Source: an uncultured Deefgea sp. (GTDB taxonomy: Bacteria; Pseudomonadota; Gammaproteobacteria; Burkholderiales; Chitinibacteraceae). From it: a stretch of 64,000 bases of DNA. The stretch is from positions 62,001-126,000 of the forward strand of contig NZ_CAMTIA010000002.1 of the NCBI RefSeq assembly GCF_947072475.1. Direction: 5' to 3'. The notes below the pieces were generated by a model. That model was not told where the DNA came from. It searched no databases and saw only the letters and a list, made by a program, of their open reading frames with translations. Shown here piece after piece: positions 2,642 to 61,603 of this stretch. Positions within the stretch are counted from its first letter, which is position 1. Each line of letters opens with the position of its first letter. A program made the translations under genes and the position numbers.

Positions 2642-3222
2642 AACAAAAAAATCAACGCGCCTTAATCCATTTATTGACTGCTCGCTCATGGCCCGCACGC
2701 ATTTCAGCCATCGTCATTCTGAGCATTGCCGCCTTCAGTTGGTGGAATGAACGCAGTGTTACGCCTGGCCAGCTGGCAAAAGGCAGCACCATCGAAGGCC
2801 AAGTGGTTGCGGTGGCCGACGGCGACACCATCACGCTACTGGATGCCAATCAGCAGCAATATAAATTACGTTTGGCCTATATCGATGCGCCCGAAAAGGC
2901 GATGCCTTTTGGTCAAGCCGCCAAAACGAATTTATCTGACTTGGTATTTAAGCAAAATATCAGCGCACACATTGATGATGTTGATCGCTACGGACGAGGT
3001 GTCGCCAGAATTAGTAAAAATCAACAAGATATTAATTTGGCACAAGTGAACTCAGGCTTTGCTTGGCACTACACGACCTACGCCAAAAAAGCTCAATCCG
3101 CAGCCGACTTTGCTGACTACGCCAACGCCCAGCAAGCAGCAAAATCCGCACGACTCGGTTTATGGCAAGACCCACAAGCAATGCCACCATGGGATTGGCG
3201 TAAAGCCAAGCGGAGTGAATGA
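2638..3222 (+). CDS. Thermonuclease (SNase-like) family protein, membrane-anchored/exported
   Basis: GQVVAVADGDTITLLDANQQQYKLRLAYIDAPEKAMPFGQAAKTNL; ATG overlaps the hpnC stop (ATGA). Confidence 0.9.
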   Translation: MKQKNQRALIHLLTARSWPARISAIVILSIAAFSWWNERSVTPGQLAKGSTIEGQVVAVADGDTITLLDANQQQYKLRLAYIDAPEKAMPFGQAAKTNLSDLVFKQNISAHIDDVDRYGRGVARISKNQQDINLAQVNSGFAWHYTTYAKKAQSAADFADYANAQQAAKSARLGLWQDPQAMPPWDWRKAKRSE

Positions 3223-3271
3223 GGTATTGCCAGCTAGCCAATATTAAATATTACATCTAGAGCAATACCCA
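3221..3271. repeat. IR51 copy 1 (51-bp imperfect palindrome)
   Basis: GAGGTATTGC...GCAATACCCA; same 51-bp spacing as 6 other copies. Confidence 0.75.
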
Positions 3272-5959: not shown

Positions 5960-6010
5960 AGGGTATTGCTTCAAAGCCCATACCCAAAATAGCTTACAGA
6001 TATATACCCA
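5960..6010. repeat. IR51 copy 2
   Basis: AGGGTATTGC...ATATATACCCA, 51 bp. Confidence 0.75.
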
Positions 6011-21723: not shown

Positions 21724-21774
21724 TGGGTATATGCGCGCAGGCTTTACATATAAATGCCAATACACATATACCCA
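21724..21774. repeat. IR51 copy 3
   Basis: TGGGTATATG...CATATACCCA, 10-bp perfect terminal inverted repeat, 51 bp. Confidence 0.85.
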
Positions 21775-21805: not shown

Positions 21806-22894
21806 CTAAATCACTTCAATCACCGCATTTAATGCACCGGCCGCTTTCATGGCTTGCAAAATGGCCAATAAATCTTGCGGCGTTGCGCCGACGGCGTTCA
21901 GCGCCCTAACCACTTGATTCAGCGAAGTAGCCTTCGGTACCCTTACGATGGGCCCCTTACCGGTTTCAATTTGAATTTCGGCGTTTTCAATTCGCTTAGT
22001 CGCGCCACCCGCCAGTGCATTAGGCTGCGCCACGGCATTTTCTGCCAATATCGTCACGGTTAAATTGCCATGTGCAATCGCACACGCCTCAACCGTGACC
22101 GCTTGGTTCATCACAATCGACCCCGTTCGTGCATTAATAATCACTTTGGGATTACTTTTGGCTGGCGTCACATCGATAGTTTCTAAACGTGCCAAAAAAG
22201 CCACGCGTTGATTGGGATCTTGCGGCGCGCGCACCTGAATCACCCGACCATCGAGCGCAGTGGCCACCGCGCCAATTTGGCCATTAATCGCATTCACCAC
22301 ACGACTTGCTGTTGAAAAATCAGTTTGCAATAACTCAAGCTGAACAAATTCGCCATTGCCCAATGAAGTCGGTACGGCTCGCTCAACGGTTGCCCCTGCT
22401 GGCACCAAGCCAGTTGCCAATTGATTCACTTGCACGCTAGTACCAGCCGCGGCAGCACCAGCACCAGCGACAATTAAATTGCCTTGCGCCATGGCATAAA
22501 TTTGCCCGTCCGCACCTTTGAGCGGTGCCATTAATAAAGTGCCGCCGCGCAAACTTTTGGCATTACCAATCGAAGAAACCACCACATCCAAAGGCTGACC
22601 TGGCCGCGCAAACGGCGGCAAAGTGGCGGTCACCATCACGGTGGCGACGTTTTTTAGCTGCAAATTGCCGCCCGTAGGCACTTGCACGCCAAGATTGGTG
22701 AGCATGTTTAGGATCGACTGCACTGTAAACGGCGTTTGCGTGGTTTGATCGCCAGTACCGTCCAAGCCAACGACAAGGCCATACCCCACCAATTGATTGT
22801 TTCGTACGCCGGCAAAACTAGCGAGCTGCTTTAACGGCTCGGCCATACTCAACATCGACGTGCAACACAGCAAAACTAGCAATAAATGGCGCAT
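21806..22894 (-). CDS. flgI: Flagellar P-ring protein FlgI
   Basis: ASFAGVRNNQLVGYGLVVGLDGTGDQTTQTPFTVQSILNML. Confidence 0.97.
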   Translation of the reverse strand: MRHLLLVLLCCTSMLSMAEPLKQLASFAGVRNNQLVGYGLVVGLDGTGDQTTQTPFTVQSILNMLTNLGVQVPTGGNLQLKNVATVMVTATLPPFARPGQPLDVVVSSIGNAKSLRGGTLLMAPLKGADGQIYAMAQGNLIVAGAGAAAAGTSVQVNQLATGLVPAGATVERAVPTSLGNGEFVQLELLQTDFSTASRVVNAINGQIGAVATALDGRVIQVRAPQDPNQRVAFLARLETIDVTPAKSNPKVIINARTGSIVMNQAVTVEACAIAHGNLTVTILAENAVAQPNALAGGATKRIENAEIQIETGKGPIVRVPKATSLNQVVRALNAVGATPQDLLAILQAMKAAGALNAVIEVI

Positions 22895-29001: not shown

Positions 29002-31692
29002 TTAAACTGGGTCCTGTAAGCGCTTCACCACCCACTTCAAGCTATCATCCTCCGCATGGCGGGTAATACTAAATCCCATATGCTTCATAAAGGTGAGCAT
29101 GGTTTTATTGCTACTTAACACCTCGCCTTCAATCAGCGATAAGCCCATATCTCGCGCAGCGATAAACAAGGCATTCATTAAGCGCACTCCCAAGCCCATT
29201 CCTTGCCACTGATCACTAATCACCACCGCAAACTCGCAACTATCTCGATCCGGATTGGCATTAAAACGGGCAACGCCAATGATTTCAGTGCCCACGCCGG
29301 TTTCAACCGTCGCCACAATCGCCATCTCTCGGGTGTAATCGAGCTGGGTAAAACGCGCCAGCATCGCTTGGGGTAATGATTTTAACGTGCTCATAAAGCG
29401 GTTATAGCGACTCTCTTCAGACAATTTACTCACAAATAAGGCAATCAAATCAGCATCTTCAGGACGAATTGGCCGCAAAACCAGCGGTAAGCCATTTTTT
29501 AATTGCGTAATCTGCGCCAAATGCGCCGGATAAGGGTGAATCGCCATATGGCTATAGCGACGCGCATGCTCAGCCAATGGCGCCAAAACAATCCTTGCAT
29601 CGACGGCAATGACGCCATTTTCATCGGCAATCAGCGGATTAATATCCAGCTGCTGAATTTGCGGAAACTCGCACACCATCTCCGAAACCCGCAGTAAAAC
29701 CGCCTTCACCGCCGCCATGTCCACGCCGGGCAAATTGCGAAATGGCGCGAGCATTTTTTTGACACGCGTGCGGCTAATTAGATTTTCTGCGAGGTATTCA
29801 TTGAGCGGCGGCAAAGACACTGCGATGTCATTAAATACCTCAACAGTCACCCCACCATAACCAAAAGTAATCACCGGACCAAACGCCCGATCACGGCCAA
29901 CGCCAACCATCAGCTCGCGGCCAGATTTTTTGCCATGCATAGGCTGAATCACCAAGCCACGCACATTCTCGGCGCCGAGCCGCTCTTGCGCACGCGACAA
30001 CATTTTGCTGGCTTCGGTTGCCACCTGCACCAAGCTATTAAGGTTAAGCACCACGCCATCGATATCGGTTTTATGCAATATGCCTTTGGCGTCGATTTTC
30101 ATCGCCACCGGCAGGCCCAAACCCATTGCGGCCGACACGGCCTCGTCGACCGATTGCGCCCGAATGGTCAGCGTAACTGGGATATGAAACGCGCGTAAAA
30201 TCGCTTTTGATTCGACTTCATCGAGTACTTCACGACCACTGGCCAACACGGTGCTAATAATCATTTGCGCGGTTTCGAGATCTGGCGCTTCCATTTCGCC
30301 CAAAGGACTTGGCGTTTGTAGCAGCAATTGCTGATTGTATTGCCATGCGGCCAGCGAATAAAACACTTCAACCGCGCTTTCTGGCGCATTAAAAAACGCC
30401 ATTTGCGATTTGCCGAGTAATTTTCGGCTGGCATCGATTTTTTTACCGCCCACCCAAGCCAATAGCAACGGTTTATCGGTGGTCTTCTTTAGCGCAATCA
30501 TCGCCTCGGCCGTCGCCATATCGTCAGTGCCGACTTGCGGGGTAAACACCACCAACACGCCATCGATATTCGGGTCTTTAATCACCAACTCAGTAGCGAG
30601 TTTAAAGCGCTCGGCATTGGCATCGCCCAACACATCCACCGGATTGTGAACGCTGCTTTGCAGCGGCAATAGCTCCCGCAATTGGGCAATGGTGGCCTCG
30701 GTCAATTGCGGCAATGCAATATGCAAATCGTTGGCGCGATCAACCGCCATTAAACCGGCACCAATCCCGTTGGTAATAATCGCCAGACGCCGGCCTTTGG
30801 TACGGTAAGAGCCGTCCATCACTCGAATCGCGGTGAACAATTGATTGATCGAGCGTAAACGCAACACCCCCGCGCGTTTCAGCGCCACATCAAACACATC
30901 ATTGTGATTAATTAAGCGCTCGGAATGCGTGCGGCCGACTTTAATTTCTTGCTCATAACGCCCGACTTTTAACGCCAAAACCGCTTTGGATCTTGACGCT
31001 GCGCGTAGCGCCGACATGAATAAACGCGCGTCTTTTAATTCTTCGATATACAGCAAAATGGATTTGGTTTTTGGGTCGGCAACCAAATAGTCGAGCACAT
31101 CACCCACGTCGATATCGGATGCGGTGCCTAAAGAAACCACCGAAGAAAAACCAACGTCGTGTAATTCAGCCCAATCTAAAATCGCCGTGGTCACCGAAGA
31201 CGATTGCGAGACCACCGCCAAGCTGCCACTTTTAATTTTGCCTTTAAAATTGGCCGCCAATAATTTACTCGATACGCGGCAATAGCCAAATACCGATGGC
31301 CCTAAAATGCGAATATTGAGCGATTTGGCCAGCTGTAGAATTTTATTCAGTAGCTTTTGGCTGGCTTTATCTTGGCCAACAAAATCGCACGACATAATCA
31401 TTACATGGCGAATATTTTGCTGAGCACACGCTTCGATCAATTTCAGTAGCGTACGACTGGGTGTCGTCAGAATGGCCAAGTCCACAGGATTAGTAATCTT
31501 ACTGAGCGTTTTTACTGCCGGCAAACCCTGCACCGTTTTATGCTTGAGATTCACCGCATACAGCGCGCCAGCATAACCCCCATCCAAAATATTTTTCGTC
31601 ACCGAATACCCAACTGAGCCAACCGTATCTGACGCGCCCACCACCGCAACTGAGTTAGGATCAAACAAAGGGGCAAGATAGTGGGGTTTCAT
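29002..31692 (-). CDS. Bifunctional acyl-CoA synthetase (NDP-forming)/GNAT protein acetyltransferase, Pat-like
   Basis: PHYLAPLFDPNSVAVVGASDTVGSVGYSV; ATP-grasp region; C-terminal GNAT QWQGMGLGVRLMNALFIAARDMGL. Confidence 0.93.
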   Translation of the reverse strand: MKPHYLAPLFDPNSVAVVGASDTVGSVGYSVTKNILDGGYAGALYAVNLKHKTVQGLPAVKTLSKITNPVDLAILTTPSRTLLKLIEACAQQNIRHVMIMSCDFVGQDKASQKLLNKILQLAKSLNIRILGPSVFGYCRVSSKLLAANFKGKIKSGSLAVVSQSSSVTTAILDWAELHDVGFSSVVSLGTASDIDVGDVLDYLVADPKTKSILLYIEELKDARLFMSALRAASRSKAVLALKVGRYEQEIKVGRTHSERLINHNDVFDVALKRAGVLRLRSINQLFTAIRVMDGSYRTKGRRLAIITNGIGAGLMAVDRANDLHIALPQLTEATIAQLRELLPLQSSVHNPVDVLGDANAERFKLATELVIKDPNIDGVLVVFTPQVGTDDMATAEAMIALKKTTDKPLLLAWVGGKKIDASRKLLGKSQMAFFNAPESAVEVFYSLAAWQYNQQLLLQTPSPLGEMEAPDLETAQMIISTVLASGREVLDEVESKAILRAFHIPVTLTIRAQSVDEAVSAAMGLGLPVAMKIDAKGILHKTDIDGVVLNLNSLVQVATEASKMLSRAQERLGAENVRGLVIQPMHGKKSGRELMVGVGRDRAFGPVITFGYGGVTVEVFNDIAVSLPPLNEYLAENLISRTRVKKMLAPFRNLPGVDMAAVKAVLLRVSEMVCEFPQIQQLDINPLIADENGVIAVDARIVLAPLAEHARRYSHMAIHPYPAHLAQITQLKNGLPLVLRPIRPEDADLIALFVSKLSEESRYNRFMSTLKSLPQAMLARFTQLDYTREMAIVATVETGVGTEIIGVARFNANPDRDSCEFAVVISDQWQGMGLGVRLMNALFIAARDMGLSLIEGEVLSSNKTMLTFMKHMGFSITRHAEDDSLKWVVKRLQDPV

Positions 31693-31953
31693 CGCGAGCA
31701 ACCTCAAGGAGTAATAATCAATTGTAGACTGGGCAACAGTATGCCACGCCCTTATTGCAGTGCAATATTTGTACTTTCCCTACATTTTCCGTTCAGCAAA
31801 CTATCAAGAGCTTCAAGGGAAAGATATAATCTAACGCTTTATATCAATCCAAATTTGAAAACTAATCGTCAACCCATTGTATTGCCTAGCAAGGACAATG
31901 ATGACGGCATGCTGTTGGTTTTCTTTCGCTTCATCTACTCAGGATAATCCATC

Positions 31954-32586: not shown

Positions 32587-32637
32587 TGGGTATATCGACC
32601 AAAGTATTGCAAATAAAGGCCTAGCAGCATATACCAT
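32587..32637. repeat. IR51 copy 4
   Basis: TGGGTATAT...ATATACCAT, 51 bp frame. Confidence 0.7.
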
Positions 32638-32653
32638 TACAAAAAATGCGGCA

Positions 32654-32915
32654 TTCAGATTTGCTGTTGATGCTGTGCCGCGCTCGTCGAGCTGGGGCTT
32701 AAAATCCCGTTCAAGCGCACCGAGTGCGGAAGGGAGACAAACGGTTTTATCGTTTGGCTCACGACAATCGAGGGCACAGCGGAGCTGGGCGCGCTCGGGG
32801 CGCCTTTCTTTCCCCCTCTTTCTTTGGCGAGTCAAAGAAAGAGGGTCCCCGTCGCGGACTGCGACTGTAAAACAATGTGCCGCAGGCACTTAAAACCAGC
32901 AACACGTAATCTGAA
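32654..32915. repeat. R2 dispersed repeat copy 1 (~262 bp, imperfect terminal inverted repeats)
   Basis: Ends TTCAGATTTGCTGTTG / CAACACGTAATCTGAA; interior matches 61312-61576. Confidence 0.8.
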
Positions 32916-32941
32916 CAGCACCACAAAAAATACGGCCTGAA

Positions 32942-34963: not shown

Positions 34964-35014
34964 AAGGTATAGACCCACAATGCTTATAATCTCTGACCTG
35001 TATTCAAATACCCA
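34964..35014. repeat. IR51 copy 5 (degenerate)
   Basis: AAGGTATAGACC...CAAATACCCA, 51-bp spacing conserved; 5-bp core stem. Confidence 0.6.
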
Positions 35015-35016
35015 AA

Positions 35017-35835
35017 CTATCGTAACAAACTCAGCACTTGTCCCGCACTCGCCCGCGCCTGAACTTGCATCGCCAAATTCGCGTTATTACGCACCTTATC
35101 CTGTGTCCATTGCGATGTTGTTGCTGCGTAATCGGTATCGGCAACACGACTTTTGGCAGCAGATAAATTTAAAGCACTGGTTTGCAAATTTTGAATGCCA
35201 CTGTCAATTCGATTTTGAAAAGCGCCCAGTTGCCCCCGCTGTCCAGAAATCAGCTCAATATCACGATCCAGCAAAGAGAGGCTGCTATTGGCAGCACTGG
35301 AACTCGATAAATCAAGTAATCCGGCAGCACTCGCCAAGCCATTTGCACCATTTAAGCTTGGATTATTCAGGCTAAGTAAATCATTGGCATTGGGCCCAGC
35401 TTGAAAATTAAATGCGCCACCTTGCAAAAGCGCCTGACCATTAAATTGCGCGTTATTAACAATATCCGCATTGCTTTGCGACAATGCATCGGCCTCAGCC
35501 TGCATTGCCTGTCGATCACTCGCCGACAAAGTACCGTTGCCCGCAGCCACTGTTAATTCACGCAATCGATCGGTATTGTCCGAAATTGAACTCAAGGCCC
35601 CGTCAGCGGTTTGCGCCAAAGAAATACCATCGTTCAGATTTCTCACCGCCTGATTACTGCCTGCGATTTGCGCGGCAAACTGCTCAATTAAAGCGCTGCC
35701 TGCCGCATCGTCTTTGGCGCTATTGATGCGAGTGCCACTGGACAAACTTTGCAGGGTTTTCGCTTGTGTTGCTTGCGCCAAAGCCGCGCTACTTTGCAGC
35801 CCCAATGCCGCTAAATTAGAAGAGACATTCATCAT
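35017..35835 (-). CDS. Flagellin, short (~270 aa)
   Basis: LSSGTRINSAKDDAAGSALIEQFAAQIAGSNQAVRNLNDGISLAQTADGALS; C-term SRVADTDYAATTSQWTQDKVRNNANLAMQVQARASAGQVLSLLR. Confidence 0.95.
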   Translation of the reverse strand: MMNVSSNLAALGLQSSAALAQATQAKTLQSLSSGTRINSAKDDAAGSALIEQFAAQIAGSNQAVRNLNDGISLAQTADGALSSISDNTDRLRELTVAAGNGTLSASDRQAMQAEADALSQSNADIVNNAQFNGQALLQGGAFNFQAGPNANDLLSLNNPSLNGANGLASAAGLLDLSSSSAANSSLSLLDRDIELISGQRGQLGAFQNRIDSGIQNLQTSALNLSAAKSRVADTDYAATTSQWTQDKVRNNANLAMQVQARASAGQVLSLLR

Positions 35836-35955
35836 CAACTCCTCACGCATCAATATACTTAGTTTCAGATTACGCCAAATATAAGCAAAAGCGAATATAA
35901 ACGACTGGCGGCACACTATGTCGCCAGCGTAAACTTACGTTCCAATTAAACAAAA

Positions 35956-41493: not shown

Positions 41494-41544
41494 TAGGTAT
41501 AGCCACCTAAGCTACGTATTTAATAACTTAGATTCATATACCTA
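41494..41544. repeat. IR51 copy 6
   Basis: TAGGTATAGC...CATATACCTA, compensatory terminal pair A-T, 51 bp. Confidence 0.75.
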
Positions 41545-41554
41545 AGAGAAAATA

Positions 41555-42379
41555 ATGAGAAAAATACAATATCAACTCGTCAATGTTTTTACTACCGAAC
41601 ACTTGTTTTCGGGTAACCCACTCGCGGTTTTCCCCCACGCGAGCGATATCACAGCAGCAGAAATGGCCGCATTAGGCCAGCAGATGAACCTGTCTGAAAT
41701 CACTTTTGTCACGCCAAGCGATCAAGCAGATGCCGCTGTGCGTATTTTTACCCCTAGTTATGAAATGCCATTTGCGGGCCACCCCACGCTTGGCACAGCC
41801 TTTGTGATCGCTCAAGGCCGCTCACATCTCACGCTGCAAATGAAAGCCGGATTAATCCCTGTGCAAGTGAATGGTCATCAAGTCACGCTCACCGCCAATC
41901 CACCCAGCTATCGCGATGGCCCCGAGCGGACTGAACTTGCTAGCGCCCTTGGTATTAGCAGTCATCACATTATTGAACAGCCGCTGTTTGTTCATTGCGG
42001 CACAGAACAATTGATTATCCAATTAGATAGCGCTGACAGCGTCTCGGCTTGCCAAGCTAATTCGGAACAGTTCATGCAAGTGGCAATTAATGTGGATGGA
42101 CGAGCAGGCGCCTTGGTCTGGGCTTACGATGGAGAAACAGTCATCGCGCGTTATTTTTGGAATCAAAATGGCGTCTCTGCTGAAGATTTTGGTACCGGCT
42201 CAGCCTGCGCCAACTTAGGCGGCTATTTGCTCGCACAACATAAACCAACGCCCTTTAGCCTCATCATGGAACAAGGCCACCGCATCAAGCGTATTGCGCG
42301 CTTGCAACTAGATGTAGATACCACGATTCAAGTCAGCGGCAAAGTAAGCACGATCGGCCAAGGTGAGTTTTGGATTTAA
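41555..42379 (+). CDS. PhzF family phenazine-biosynthesis-like isomerase
   Basis: YQLVNVFTTEHLFSGNPLAVFPHA; MPFAGHPTLGTAFV; DFGTGSACANLGGYL. Confidence 0.93.
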   Translation: MRKIQYQLVNVFTTEHLFSGNPLAVFPHASDITAAEMAALGQQMNLSEITFVTPSDQADAAVRIFTPSYEMPFAGHPTLGTAFVIAQGRSHLTLQMKAGLIPVQVNGHQVTLTANPPSYRDGPERTELASALGISSHHIIEQPLFVHCGTEQLIIQLDSADSVSACQANSEQFMQVAINVDGRAGALVWAYDGETVIARYFWNQNGVSAEDFGTGSACANLGGYLLAQHKPTPFSLIMEQGHRIKRIARLQLDVDTTIQVSGKVSTIGQGEFWI

Positions 42380-49717: not shown

Positions 49718-52700
49718 ATGTTTTCTCGATTTTTTATTGAACGGCCAATTTTTGCCGCAGTAATTTCCATTGTCATTTCAATTGTGGGTGCGTTGGCGCT
49801 CTATAGCCTGCCAGTCGAACAATATCCGGTGATTGCACCGGTGCAAATCCAAGTTACCGCAAATTACCCAGGCGCAGATGCACAAACAGTCGCACAAACC
49901 GTCGCAGCGCCCATTGAGCAGCAAATTATTGGCGTTGATAATTTACTTTATATGAAGTCAAGCAGCTCATCGAGCGGCACCATTACCATTACGGCTTACT
50001 TCAATCTAGAAACCGATCCGGATATTGCTCAAGTTCAAGTACAAAATCGAGTAGATCGCGCATTACCGCAATTACCAGCAATTGTTGCGCAAAATGGGGT
50101 CTCTGTAGAAAAACAATCATCGAGTATTTTGATGGTGATTGCTGTCTACGATAAATCGGGAAAAATGTCCTCCGCACAGCTCGATAACTACACCAATATT
50201 AATATCATGGATGCGATCAAACGCGTTCCCGGCGCTGGGCAGGCTACCTTATTTGGTTCACCAAACCAAGCGATGCGAATTTGGTTAAATCCTCGCAATA
50301 TGGCCTCTTTAGGCGTGACCACTAGCGATATTAAATCAGCGATCTCCAGCCAAAATGCGCTGGTTGGTGCTGGACAAATTGGGCAAGCGCCTAACGAAGG
50401 CACCGTCGAAATGACGTTTCCTGTCGTGACTGACGGTGCGTTTTCAGACCCAACCATTTACGAAAATATGATTATTAAAGCGTCGCAAAATGGCAATGCA
50501 ATTGTCCATCTGAAAGACGTCGCAAAAATAGAGTTTGGTCGGCAATATTATTCGGGTGAAAATGTATTTAATAACCGACCTACATCAGCAATTGGCGTTT
50601 ATCTTCAAGCAGGAGCAAATAGTATTGATGTTTCAAATGCGATACGAGCAACGCTGAGTAATGCAAAAACAGATTTTCCAAGCGGCTTAGATTATACCAT
50701 TGCCTTAGATACGACCGATTTTGTCCGAGATTCAATTAAAGAAGTTGTTATTACATTGTTTGAGGCGTTATTACTTGTTATTTGTGTAATGTATTTATTT
50801 TTACAAAACCTCCGCGCCACAGTCATTGCCACCATCGCAATTATCGTTTCTTTATTAGGTGCGTTTATTGGTTTAGCCGCTATGGGGTTTTCGGTTAATT
50901 TATTAACTTTATTTGGCTTAGTACTTGCTATTGGTTTAGTCGTTGACGATGCCATCGTCGTGATTGAACACGTAGAACATACGATGCACGAAAACCCAGA
51001 AATGTCAGTAAAAGACGCGGCGATTCTTTCAATGGATGAAGTCTCTGGCGCAGTTTTAAGCATGACACTTGTTCTTTCTGCCGTTTTCATTCCCGCTTTG
51101 TTTGTTTCTGGAACAACAGGACAACTCTATAAGCAATTTGCAACTACGATTGCAAGTGGTGTTTTGATTTCTGGCGTTACGGCGCTCACACTCACGCCAA
51201 CACTCTGCGCTATTTTATTAAAACGAAGCGCCCCGCCAACCAAAGGCTTCTTTGCTTGGTTTAATGATTGGTTTGCTCGACTTACAAAATCATACGGGAT
51301 TATTTCACATACAATTATTCGTCGCTCGGCGCTTTCTGTTTTGCTATTGGCTGTTATGGTCGCTGGTTTGTGGCAGTTATTCAGAATCGTACCAACCAGC
51401 TTTGTGCCACAAGAAGATCAAGGCTATATGCTTGCGGCTTTAATGATGCCCGAAGCAGCTAGTTTACAAAGGACCATTAGCGCTGGCGAACAACTCAACA
51501 AAGTCATTCGCGACAATCCAGCAGTCAGCTACAACACCATGATTAACGGCTTTAGTATGCTCGATGGGCAAGTTAAAACCAATGCAGCAACGGCATTTAT
51601 TGGTTTAAAACCATTTGATGAAAGAAAATCTGCATCAGAATCCGTTTTTGCCGTTACCCAACAAATCGCCAAAGAAACCAGAGGTATGACCAGCGGAGCT
51701 GTTATTCCATTAGTTCCTCCTCCTATACCTGGAATCGGCACGTCTGGCGGCTTTGAAATTTGGTTGCAAAACAAAGGTACGGATACACCGGAACAAATGC
51801 AGCAAGTGTTACAAAAATTTGTTGCTGCTGCTAGTAAACGACCTGAATTAGGTGGGCTGACCAGTACCTTTAATGCCAATAGCCAACAATTAAAAGTAAC
51901 GATTAATCGTGAGCAAAGCAATCTGATTGGCGTGCCTATTTCAGATGTTTTGTCTGCTCTACAAGCCCAATTTGGCTCTTTAAGGGTGAGTCAATTTAAT
52001 CAATACAGTCGAGTTTGGGATGTCACCATGCAAGCTGAAGCACGCTATCGGCAAAAGCCTGAAGACATTGACCAAATTTATACTCGTTCACACAGCGGCG
52101 ACATGGTGCCTTTGTCTGCGGTTGTGAATATGAGCTTTGTCAATGGCCCAACGATTATGTCGCACTTTAATGGGTTTCCGGCGGTCAACATCATTGGCTC
52201 TCCCAACCCAGGTTACAGTTCAGGTCAAGCAATCTCCGCTCTCAAAGAGGTCGCAGCGGCCACATTACCAAGTAGCTACAGCTACGCATGGGCAGGCTTA
52301 TCTTATTCAGAAACGACTTCGGGTAATGATTCGATTTATATTTTCTTGCTTGGCATCTTAATGGTCTTTCTGATTCTGGCGGCCCTATTTGAATCATGGT
52401 CACTCCCCGCTGCCGTCATCTGCGCAGTGCCTTTTGGCTTGCTAGGCGCCTTAATTTTCACTTGGTTACGTGGGCTAGACAACGATGTCTATATGCAGAT
52501 TGGTTTATTGGTTTTAGTGGGTTTGGCAGCGAAAAATGCGATTTTGATCGTAGAGTTTGCCATCAAGCAACATCAAGCCGGCCATAGTTTGCTCGAATCC
52601 GCAGTTGAAGCCGGTGAATTACGTTTACGCGCCATTATCATGACTTCACTCGCATTTATGTTAGGCACATTACCTTTGGCGCTTGCATCAGGCAGTGGTG

Positions 52701-52891
52701 CTAATGCGCGCCACTCTATTGGTACCGGTATTATTGGTGGGATGGTTTTACTTTCCTCACTGGCTTTAATTTATGTGCCGTTGTTTTATTATCATTTTGA
52801 AAGTTGGCGCGAAAAAAATAAACAGAAATCAGCACCCGAAGTAACAGAGCCAAAGTCGGATGCAAGTCCTACAGAGGAGCAGCCACAATGA
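49718..52891 (+). CDS. RND efflux inner-membrane transporter (AcrB/HAE1 type)
   Basis: [70 protein letters not shown]. Confidence 0.97.
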   Translation: [1057 protein letters not shown]

Positions 52892-56256: not shown

Positions 56257-56410
56257 ACTTCCCCCAAGACAATGAACATAAATGTCATAAAAATAGTACG
56301 AAACAGCATATCAGAATATGCTTACATTCAATATGATGAAAGAAAAATACTGACAAATGCCCAACAGCAGCGGCATTGCTTTTACTTATTTCAATACTTA
56401 GAGCTTGATC

Positions 56411-59218
56411 ATGAATCCAAAATACGTCGGCAGCGCCATACTTTTACTGCTGTTAACAGCATGTGGTGGTGGCACAGAAGTTAGCCCGCCTTCAATTGGC
56501 GGAGGTGGCGGCAATACAGGAATCGGGCCAAGCTCTGCGCCAGGCGTCACGCCAACCCCAGAGCCCACAACCCAAGCTACACCTGCTCCAACCATAGAGC
56601 CGATCCCCGACCCAATCGAAGTCGCACTAAAAACCGGCAGCGTCCAAGGACTGAACCGCAGTGATATGCCAACATTACTGCGTTTATCACAACAAACTGC
56701 AGGCCAGTACCAACAGCGGCAAACTGCGGCACTCGTTGATATTTATGGCGATAGCAAATTAAATCTAGCGCTCAATCACACCACCAATAGCATTGAAATC
56801 AATCGCTCAATCTCCACCATGGCTTCACCATTGATTGTCGCTGACGACGGTAGCGGCATGGCTGCCATCTCGCAATATGGTAAAGGGCGTGGCTTAGCTT
56901 ATGGCGTAAATATGCTGCAATGGATGGCCGATCAATCCAGAGAAACTCAGCACTTGCCAATGTTTACCCGAGCATTCAATTGGGTTGTTACCGGCAAAGC
57001 AACTGGCCCACTACCTGACACGCTTAAATTTGCCACCGCGGGCTATGACGCACCAACAGTAAGTCGCTTCATCACTTTACTCGGTAAAAAACCCGAAGCC
57101 ATTCCCTGTGATTTAACGCTCAGCAGCAATACCTGCTGGCAAAACGCCGATGTTTTGGTGTTCGGTGCTGGTGTTAGAGATGATGCCAACTTAATTAATT
57201 TGGTCCGCCAATACCAAGCCAGCGGCAAAGCCATTATCTATATGCACCCCAATTGGATTGACTCGGGCGGTGGCCGCAAAGTGGCCAAAGCCATGGGGAT
57301 GGACCTCGGTGGCTACCCTGGCAATTACTTTGCCGGTGCTGCAGGCTATTCGGTGAACAGTAACCGCACCATCGCTGACGCATTGCAGCGCGGCGATCAA
57401 ATGGGTGCCCTAGCCAAAGCACTCGAACAAATGGGCACGGACAATCTCAGCGTTGACTTAGCGGCAGATACTCGCTCAACCTCCGCCATCAGCCAAATTC
57501 ACAATGAAATAGCTACATTACAAAGCAGTGGCATCGATTTATTTGCTGAAGCGCCAACCGATTTGCATCGTTTACTCATTCTTTGGGCCGATCTTTATCG
57601 TCCAACCATTCAATACGGCAAAATCAATCGCACCACCAATCCCGCTGAGTTTTTACGCACCTATGCCTCAGATTCTTGGCTGGCTTACAACCGCAGCTAC
57701 ACCACTTTTGCCAGCGCAGGCCAAGGTGACTTTATGCCGGTTGCCGCGCAAAGCATCCCCGTCAGCCAAAGCGATGAACTGATCGACGTCACCATTGCGC
57801 AAACCGGTGGCACCTCCGCCATTGGCCGTGCCAGCATCCCAGGTAAACCCGTCTTAATCGAAATTGTCGACAAAGGCAGCGCCAACCTCAGCATTCAAAC
57901 CAACCACGTGCGCGCCTTTGGTAATCCACTCACCGACAGCGTGGCCGAAGGTTATAAACGCCCGCGCCGTCCGCAATCGTTCGCCATGCCACTCAATACC
58001 ACCAAAGCCACGGTGTTTGTTTCTCCCTTTGGTGGTCCGCTTTACCTTAATTACAGCGGCGCAAGCGCTGGGCAAACCGTCACCTTAAAAATTCGCGGTG
58101 CCGCCAAATATGCGCACTTTGACTTTAGCAAGCCACAAAGCGACGCCGAAATCAACGAGGCCGTCGCCGCACTCAAACGCAAAGACTTTGGCTGGCAGAC
58201 GGCGAAATTTGTCGGTGGAGAAATCCAACAAACCATCAATTACGCCAATCAAGCCATGGGCAATATCGACCCTAAGGTGTATATCTTGGATCAAGTCAAA
58301 GGCAGCTTATTTGATAGCAATCACCTCGCCAATGGCTATAGCAATATGCCGATGTCGGCCAATGTGTCGCAGCTGTGTACGAAATTAGGTTGGCAGTGTG
58401 ATGGGCCGATTCACCGCGCACCGAGCGTACAGCACTTTGTTGGTTGGATCGCTCAATGTGGATTTCTTTGCTCGGGCAATCCATCCGATGGCTTTGCGGG
58501 TATCAGTGGCACCGGCTGGGGACACGCGCATGAGCTCGGCCACAACACGGTGCAGCGCGTGATGACGATTGCATTTAATGGCCAAGGGTGTGTCACAGAA
58601 TGCAATAACAACATCCTCGCCAGCGCGCAGATGATGCGGCAATTTAAAACGCTCGGCGTCGATACGGGGCATACCACCAACCACCCAACCTTGTATCAAC
58701 ACATCAAAAACAACCGAGACACCAACAAAGTCGGAGAAGAGAAAATCCTCGACATGCAAAAACGACTTTGGACCATGGCGGATCCAAACTCAATGCGCGC
58801 CGTACACTTTCAATTGGCGTTTTTGTTTAGCAAATATCGCGCCAATGAAGCCAAGCCGAGTATGGAAGCCAGTCTGGATTACTTCACGCTACTCACCAAG
58901 GGCGATCGCCTCGTGAGCCAAGCATGGGATGCCAGTAATAAAGGCAAATACGCAATGGGCAGCTATGCCGACAACAAGACCATTAACAACCCAGATTTGC
59001 TGTATGTTTTAAGCTCAAAAATCATCGGCAAAGACTTAAAAAACATTTTCGCGATGTATGGCATCACACTCACAGCGAACGCCATCAATTCGGTAGCGGC
59101 CTTAAACCTGACTATATTGCCGGAAACCTTTTACGCACTCGCAAGCAGCAAGTACAACCAAGTCAGTACCGGTGTTTGGCTCGACCTCTCAGCTCAAACC
59201 CCGAACTATCCGTTTTAA
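56411..59218 (+). CDS. Secreted/lipoprotein metalloprotease, M60/ImpA-like
   Basis: Lipobox LLTACGGG; Pro-rich linker; GWGHAHELGHNTVQR zinc motif (HELGH). Confidence 0.85.
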   Translation: MNPKYVGSAILLLLLTACGGGTEVSPPSIGGGGGNTGIGPSSAPGVTPTPEPTTQATPAPTIEPIPDPIEVALKTGSVQGLNRSDMPTLLRLSQQTAGQYQQRQTAALVDIYGDSKLNLALNHTTNSIEINRSISTMASPLIVADDGSGMAAISQYGKGRGLAYGVNMLQWMADQSRETQHLPMFTRAFNWVVTGKATGPLPDTLKFATAGYDAPTVSRFITLLGKKPEAIPCDLTLSSNTCWQNADVLVFGAGVRDDANLINLVRQYQASGKAIIYMHPNWIDSGGGRKVAKAMGMDLGGYPGNYFAGAAGYSVNSNRTIADALQRGDQMGALAKALEQMGTDNLSVDLAADTRSTSAISQIHNEIATLQSSGIDLFAEAPTDLHRLLILWADLYRPTIQYGKINRTTNPAEFLRTYASDSWLAYNRSYTTFASAGQGDFMPVAAQSIPVSQSDELIDVTIAQTGGTSAIGRASIPGKPVLIEIVDKGSANLSIQTNHVRAFGNPLTDSVAEGYKRPRRPQSFAMPLNTTKATVFVSPFGGPLYLNYSGASAGQTVTLKIRGAAKYAHFDFSKPQSDAEINEAVAALKRKDFGWQTAKFVGGEIQQTINYANQAMGNIDPKVYILDQVKGSLFDSNHLANGYSNMPMSANVSQLCTKLGWQCDGPIHRAPSVQHFVGWIAQCGFLCSGNPSDGFAGISGTGWGHAHELGHNTVQRVMTIAFNGQGCVTECNNNILASAQMMRQFKTLGVDTGHTTNHPTLYQHIKNNRDTNKVGEEKILDMQKRLWTMADPNSMRAVHFQLAFLFSKYRANEAKPSMEASLDYFTLLTKGDRLVSQAWDASNKGKYAMGSYADNKTINNPDLLYVLSSKIIGKDLKNIFAMYGITLTANAINSVAALNLTILPETFYALASSKYNQVSTGVWLDLSAQTPNYPF

Positions 59219-61019: not shown

Positions 61020-61070
61020 TGGGTATATGCCGCTAGTACTTACACTGCAAATCATAGCGAGATATACCCA
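61020..61070. repeat. IR51 copy 7
   Basis: TGGGTATAT...ATATACCCA, 9-bp terminal stem, 51 bp. Confidence 0.8.
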
Positions 61071-61127
61071 GTAAAAATTTTCCATTTTCAGATTACGTGT
61101 TGATCCTGATTAAAGCTTCGCGGCATT

Positions 61128-61230
61128 CCCTCTCCCTTGATGGGAGAGGGCTAGGGTGAGGGTGATACTACGGCGTATATTTTAAGCTCAACACCCCCAT
61201 CCCAACCTTCCCCCGTCGAGGGGGAAGGGG
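61128..61230. repeat. Inverted pair of REP-like hairpins
   Basis: CCCTCTCCCttgatGGGAGAGGGCTAGGGTGAGGGTG ... CACCCCCATCCCAACCTTCCCCCgtcgaGGGGGAAGG. Confidence 0.75.
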
Positions 61231-61311
61231 CTGCAGTCGATCGGTTTAAACGCGTGCAATTTAAAATATCAACACCAAATCCAAACATCGCCTAAAAATC
61301 GGCTTTGTTAA

Positions 61312-61576
61312 AATTTGCTGTTGATGCTGTGCCGCGCTCGTTGGGCTGGGGCTTATCCATCCCGTTCAAGCGCACCGAGTGAGGAGGACGACAAATAGCT
61401 TTATCGTTTGGCTCACAGCGGAGCTGGGCGCGATCAAAAGCGCTTTTCTTTCCCCCTATTTCTTTGGCGAGTCAAAGAAAACGAAGTTTCTGCGTAGTTA
61501 AAGAGGGCTCCGCCACTGACTGCGACTGCAAACAGCCGTGCCGCAGGCACTTAAAACCGTCAACACGTAATCTGAA
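61312..61576. repeat. R2 dispersed repeat copy 2 (core)
   Basis: AATTTGCTGTTGATGCTGTGCCGCGCTCG...GTGCCGCAGGCACTTAAAACCGTCAACACGTAATCTGAA, homologous to 32654-32915. Confidence 0.8.
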
Positions 61577-61603
61577 CATTGTCTCCCAATCGAGGACCGC
61601 AGT

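Follow-up and report, generated by a model that had tools for sequence, protein, structure and literature searches.

IR51, a 51-bp dyad present in hundreds of copies per genome, is probably a site for a putative sequence-specific DNA-binding protein that acts chromosome-wide in Deefgea, Chitinibacter and Chitinilyticum. The protein would serve a role other than promoter control, and either its complex with IR51 or the site itself would guide the transposition of IS1595-type elements. The MITEs that we found beside IR51 are an independent in vivo sign of its recognition, at one-base resolution. Judged from the sequences, conservation alone would call for a DNA-binding protein.

We analyzed a window of 64 kb, which is the whole stretch of Deefgea DNA under study. 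It holds all seven IR51 copies where the initial annotation had placed them, each with GGTAT in columns 3-7 and ATACC in columns 45-49 (Table 1). The same annotation described A16 and C34 as invariant, which is true of these seven but not beyond them, as A16 was found in roughly 70% and C34 in roughly 43% of 46 copies. Two extra exact-ended matches lie in the window, both of them intragenic, and the one at 51681 may possibly be coincidental. Allowing up to one mismatch, the window contained 15 matches, whereas dinucleotide shuffles averaged 0.91 and never exceeded 5. The copy at 41494 represents the rarest IR51 context, a divergent gap. At the 3221 locus, G005 has a near-perfect palindrome with one end mutated. 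Two orthologues carry additional sequence at their right edge: a short tandem duplication (~12 bp) of the ATACCC end at the 21724 locus of G001, and an additional ATACCC half farther along at the 3221 locus of G003. Among the annotated genes of the window, none was conspicuous as a candidate for an IR51-binding protein. The FlgI encoded in the window is most similar to those of Deefgea chitinilytica and D. rivuli. The gene at 56405-59218 encodes a protein of the secreted-metalloprotease type, with IMPa_N_2, IMPa_helical and weak M60 peptidase domains.

Table 1. IR51 copies and adjoining mobile elements in the window. G numbers denote compared genomes.
Feature	Position	Strand	Context and conservation
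IR51	3221..3271	.	Directly 3' of gene ending 3222; exact orthologous copy in G001, G002, G003, G006
IR51	5960..6010	.	Convergent gene gap; exact ends in 5/5 other Deefgea species compared
IR51 (copy under study)	21724..21774	.	31 bp 3' of flgI (21806-22894, minus); exact ends in G001, G002, G003, G006
IR51, coding, exact ends	29791..29841	.	Inside gene 29002-31707 (ATP-grasp/CoA-ligase/GNAT protein, minus)
IR51	32587..32637	.	MITE 11 bp from core; IR51 at orthologous place in 5/5 relatives
8-bp target duplication ACAAAAAA	left 32639..32646, right 32923-32930	.	Flanks MITE 32647..32922
MITE, ~276 bp	32647..32922	+	Terminal repeats of GGCAATGTTCAGATT type, degenerate in this copy
IR51	34964..35014	.	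2 bp 3' of flagellin-like gene 35017-35850 (minus); orthologous copy in 5/5 relatives
IR51	41494..41544	.	Divergent gap, 10 bp before start at 41555; exact in G001, G002, G003
Exact-ended match	51681..51731	.	Inside gene 49718-52891; retained in G001 and G002 only
IR51	61020..61070	.	MITE 11 bp from core; orthologous copies in G002, G003, G005, G006
Shorter MITE, ~213 bp	61080..61292	+	Adjoins IR51 at 61020; flanked by TAAAAATT/TAAAAATC
MITE of 276-bp type	61301..61583	+	76% identical to the 32647 MITE; directly behind MITE 61080..61292

We found the pattern GGTAT-N37-ATACC at 382 places in the Deefgea genome (3.45 Mb) from which the window was taken, versus 5 for the mirror pattern. When spacings from 15 to 99 were scanned in a 458-kb sample, we found 46 cases at spacing 37, five at 38 and 0-3 at every other. 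Enrichment is confined to the 37-bp spacing. Spacing 38 was slightly raised in the totals (5 in the 458-kb Deefgea sample and 4 in a stretch of Chitinibacter G064) and absent between genes. A mismatch-tolerant profile search of the 458-kb sample returned about 72 copies scoring at least 8 bits, or about 540 per genome by extrapolation; the reversed sequence gave no hit at this threshold. The initial annotation expected a genome-wide search to exceed chance, to reach related genomes and not to find copies equally inside CDSs. The count is far above chance and related genomes do carry IR51, so its proposal was not refuted, though copies lie inside CDSs too.

Exact copies numbered 259-453 per genome in Deefgea, 376-542 in Chitinibacter and 276-298 in Chitinilyticum, and we put the total load in these three related genera of freshwater bacteria at about 400-600 copies per genome. 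Against our reading, the number of copies varies almost twofold from one Deefgea species to another, so many sites are individually dispensable. The remaining genera of the family and order had 0-8 matches, near their own mirror controls. A stricter pattern, run against 250 genomes of the order from 120 genera, matched in Deefgea, Chitinibacter and Chitinilyticum only. In IMG/VR, a strict pattern matched only two contigs. The viral contig L275 (IMGVR_UViG_2931094325_000001) has two exact-ended matches in 14.8 kb and is possibly a prophage of an IR51-bearing host. Our literature search for a named repeat in the three genera found none, and we know of no described site family with the length, spacing and number of IR51.

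Comparison of the 32587 locus with relatives revealed a dispersed element beside IR51. These MITEs have the terminal repeat GGCAATGTTCAGATTwsGTGTTGAT, measure about 276, 213 or fewer bp, and number about 50 per Deefgea genome. Several families with different interiors share this one terminal repeat in Deefgea and Chitinibacter. IR51 (up to one mismatch) was present within 120 bp of 48 out of 109 distinct outer MITE flanks in Deefgea, where each MITE has two ends of which only one is expected to touch IR51; in the control, it was present in 8 of 580 random 120-bp stretches. The distance to the core was exactly 11 bp in 35 of these 48 associations and 8-12 bp in 46. Chitinibacter MITEs picked by their terminal repeat alone all lay 9-12 bp from IR51 (13/13, with 11 at 11 bp), and most cases in an additional batch agreed. 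Among 46 two-ended MITEs, the target duplication was 8 bp and no other length (identity 79% versus 31% in the control). The elements adjoining IR51 have both the shared terminal inverted repeat and the 8-bp target duplication that characterize IS1595-family MITEs. Targeting is strong but not absolute, since some MITEs, for example those at L201, L210 and L214, have perfect duplications and no clear IR51. All five relatives have IR51 at the 32587 locus, and in G002 the MITE is clearly absent beside it, which shows that IR51 predates the insertion. IR51 copies next to MITEs were not more palindromic than other copies. We therefore rejected a cruciform as the transposon's cue, which points to the site or a bound protein instead.

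Full-length matches to the 276-bp MITE were limited to IR51-bearing genera, while other genera shared internal segments alone. One such internal part (approximately query 84-199), the hairpin-like CTTTCTTTGGCGAGTCAAAGAAAG, has many copies with other ends in genera without IR51, so it is likely to be an older repeat that the MITE acquired. At 61080-61583 in the window, two MITEs are arranged in tandem at a single IR51: one lies at 11 bp, and the other follows immediately. Two MITEs in G003 (L226:1528-3113 and L227:1644-3223) contain an IS481-type insertion at an identical internal point, and both composites adjoin IR51. The IS481-type transposase on L226 (L226:1708-2898, minus strand) matches rve and LZ_Tnp_IS481. 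In G034, IS110-type transposase-like genes were seen by eye just inside MITE-type terminal repeats (L284 from 839, L285 from 880).

The transposase that mobilizes the MITEs would belong to the IS1595 family. Two contigs of the Chitinibacter genome G020 end within an element that starts with a MITE-type terminal repeat. The 77-aa C-terminus encoded on this fragment matches NCBIfam NF033547 (IS1595 family) with an E-value of 2.4e-12, below the whole-protein cut-off, and its plasmid homologues are annotated as IS1595. Pfam gave no transposase match on the fragment. Members of the IS1595 family generate 8-bp target duplications, with which the duplication measured for the MITEs agrees. A third copy in G020 is interrupted by other sequence resembling an IS transposase. 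No complete autonomous element was recovered; it is known from the two contig-end fragments and the one interrupted copy in G020. The search of Deefgea genomes revealed no copy of this IS1595-type transposase.

One alternative is that this IS1595-type transposase recognizes IR51 DNA by itself, with no host protein involved in targeting, and that IR51 has some other host function. This would account for the targeting without a host protein, and the offset is indeed exact and independent of both the MITE interior and the host genus. However, IR51 is found at hundreds of MITE-free places, including genes, and is conserved there, and several IR51-rich genomes lack a detectable copy of the transposase. 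Since IR51 persists within genes and in genomes without a detectable copy of this transposase, we favor docking on a host protein and consider direct recognition unlikely.

Using gene calls from a simple home-made predictor, we found that IR51 avoids divergent gaps, which contained 5 of the 90 assigned intergenic copies, and is enriched per kb in convergent gaps (Deefgea and Chitinibacter). In twenty 20-kb samples of a complete Deefgea chromosome, IR51 was present in all but three. A site restricted to a macrodomain, like matS, was rejected on the basis of this wide distribution. Regular spacing was likewise rejected because the gaps between IR51 copies are near random, and there is thus no direct sign of chromosome organization in the spacing.

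Such a distribution might also be expected of an uptake or self-recognition signal (DUS/USS-like) that is spread and kept by molecular drive and not by a local function. Like DUS and USS, IR51 has hundreds of copies both inside and outside genes, 3'-end enrichment and lineage "dialects" in its interior. DUS dialects are known in the Neisseriaceae, which like Deefgea are Betaproteobacteria (PMC3630211). In several other respects IR51 differs from such signals. The IR51 dyad spans 51 bp, with its two boxes always 37 bp apart, and one copy every 6-9 kb is sparse for an uptake signal. DUS measure about 10-12 bp and USS less than 40 bp; both are far shorter than IR51 and need no paired boxes set four turns from each other. 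The precise docking of the transposon further points to an intracellular protein-bound site. An uptake signal therefore seems rather improbable to us.

We compared the seven window loci with five other Deefgea species. An exact-ended 51-bp copy was present in 30 of the 35 comparisons; as orthologue calls required exact ends, this is the informative figure. It would be unattainable if the ends drifted like the interior, which suggests that the ends are under selection. Identity in the interior of orthologous copies was only 44-76%, while ends and length were constant. The diverging middle and the selected structure of fixed length that had been proposed for the seven copies are thus both borne out, with counts far above mirror controls, the 37-bp spacing enriched, and ends and length conserved. 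Missing sites at the window loci align as decayed sequence of about equal length, as at 41494 in G005.

Approximately one third of the exact copies are intragenic in coding frames, far above chance. The intergenic location described for the seven copies therefore holds for them but not genome-wide. We counted 12 exact copies in strongly coding frames over 458 kb of Deefgea sequence, and 27 over 560 kb from Chitinibacter, against an expectation of approximately 0.2-0.4 per spacing; all three reading frames are used. The coding copy at 29791 retains GAG GTA TTT ... GAA TAC CTN, with synonymous codon choices preserved, in one Chitinibacter and five further Deefgea species. Together, the excess, the use of all three frames and the preserved codons place selection at the DNA level.

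These results make it very improbable that IR51 is a mobile palindromic element (REP/BIME- or MITE-like) whose copies arose in a single spread and are now decaying. Its imperfect palindrome, its hundreds of copies and its enrichment between genes and at 3' ends are in line with such an origin. Conversely, orthologous loci keep ends and length despite a diverging interior, lost copies look like same-length decay and not like excision, and coding copies encode ordinary protein. A REP/BIME system with RAYT was rejected, since REP-associated transposases (Y1_Tnp, PF01797) had no match in G003, G004, G011 and G016, which have 259-409 IR51 copies. The coding copies are also at odds with the extragenic location of REP/BIME. 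A MITE nature of IR51 itself was rejected as well, given that relatives keep the site at the window loci or have decayed sequence of similar length there, instead of clean empty sites. The initial annotation had suggested a non-autonomous mobile element. IR51 does not fit this description, being conserved in place, without an empty-site insertion signature and read through as protein in genes; the true mobile element, the MITE, lies beside IR51 and uses it as a target.

The interior of IR51 is mostly poorly paired, with approximately 8-8.5 of the 18 interior pairs formed on average. Intergenic copies showed modest palindromy beyond column composition (z = 2.6 and 3.6), and coding copies showed none. 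Template-switch correction of quasi-palindromes may explain the intergenic excess. G.U and A.C mismatches were about equally common on the sense strand (97 versus 107), which disfavors an RNA fold. An RNA hairpin at mRNA 3' ends (a terminator or stability element), also considered in the initial annotation, would suit the intergenic pairing and the enrichment near stop codons and between convergent genes, but can scarcely be correct considering the lack of G.U tolerance, the copies within genes, the absence of an Rfam match in the window and a fixed 37-base interval that has no evident meaning for a loop.

The protein-bound palindrome fits best among the three candidates proposed earlier, although binding itself is a prediction from sequence. 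The two GGTAT boxes are inverted and 42 bp apart, which at 10.5 bp per turn makes four helical turns. In intergenic copies, T13, A16 and A/T at columns 21-22 are preferred, plus the mirror images, while coding copies contain mere traces of these preferences. The inner preferences are spaced by roughly one turn, so we infer that they and the boxes face one side of the helix. Because the boxes are four turns apart and the inner preferences follow the turns, a putative dimer or tetramer may contact one face of the DNA over roughly 50 bp. Its role would be structural (nucleoid organization, insulation or similar) and not promoter control, as suggested by the avoidance of divergent promoter regions and the enrichment at convergent 3' ends. 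Given the promoter avoidance, the tolerance of intragenic sites and the chromosome-wide spread, we consider structural or insulating roles most likely, with uptake/self-recognition as the main alternative. An IS1595-type transposase would dock on the protein at IR51 (or directly on the site), and this docking would supply it with hundreds of safe landing sites away from promoters.

A fuller proposal is that each genome has 400-600 four-turn dyad sites occupied by a dedicated protein with a non-promoter function, that these sites keep their places and are common to three genera, and that IS1595-type transposons have evolved to read the complex as a safe-harbor address. We consider the arguments for and against such a previously undescribed system to be evenly balanced. 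Dense, long, strictly spaced and conserved sites in one branch of a family would imply a new chromosomal DNA-binding protein with hundreds of sites. They would also offer a natural example of a mobile element steered to hundreds of neutral sites, and make testable both the origin of genome-wide site systems and how transposases find protein-marked targets.

Several known systems share features with IR51. The sites of parS, matS, SlmA and Noc are short dyads that are likewise spread along the chromosome and conserved in place. They measure 12-20 bp, have few to tens of copies and either occupy only certain chromosomal regions or are depleted from them, whereas IR51 measures 51 bp, has approximately 400-600 copies and occurs in most sampled stretches. 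The MITEs beside IR51 share the 8-bp target duplication with the IS1595 family, and the transposase C-terminus from G020 matches NF033547 of that family. To our knowledge, IS1595 elements do not characteristically dock at a fixed position next to dispersed host sites, and we found no report of it in the literature searched. Insertion sequences that target REP palindromes have been described (PMC1525189), and these too use an abundant dispersed palindromic repeat as a landing site. ISPpu9 is reported to insert into REP sequences (PMC8450116), whereas the MITEs land outside IR51, which is not a REP, at a constant 11 bp. Nearest to the MITE targeting, by analogy, would be the behavior of IS1202-family insertion sequences, which insert 5 bp beside the XerC sites of dif/pdif and for which docking on bound XerC has been proposed (PMC10132070). 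Both insert at a fixed small distance beside a dyad site, which is protein-bound for dif and predicted to be so for IR51. The IS1202 family uses an XerCD site (dif or pdif) with few copies per replicon, a 5-bp target duplication, one orientation and a TnsB-like transposase. The IR51 system, in contrast, has a 51-bp dyad in hundreds of copies, an 11-bp offset on either side, an 8-bp target duplication and a putative IS1595-type transposase, and consists mostly of MITEs.
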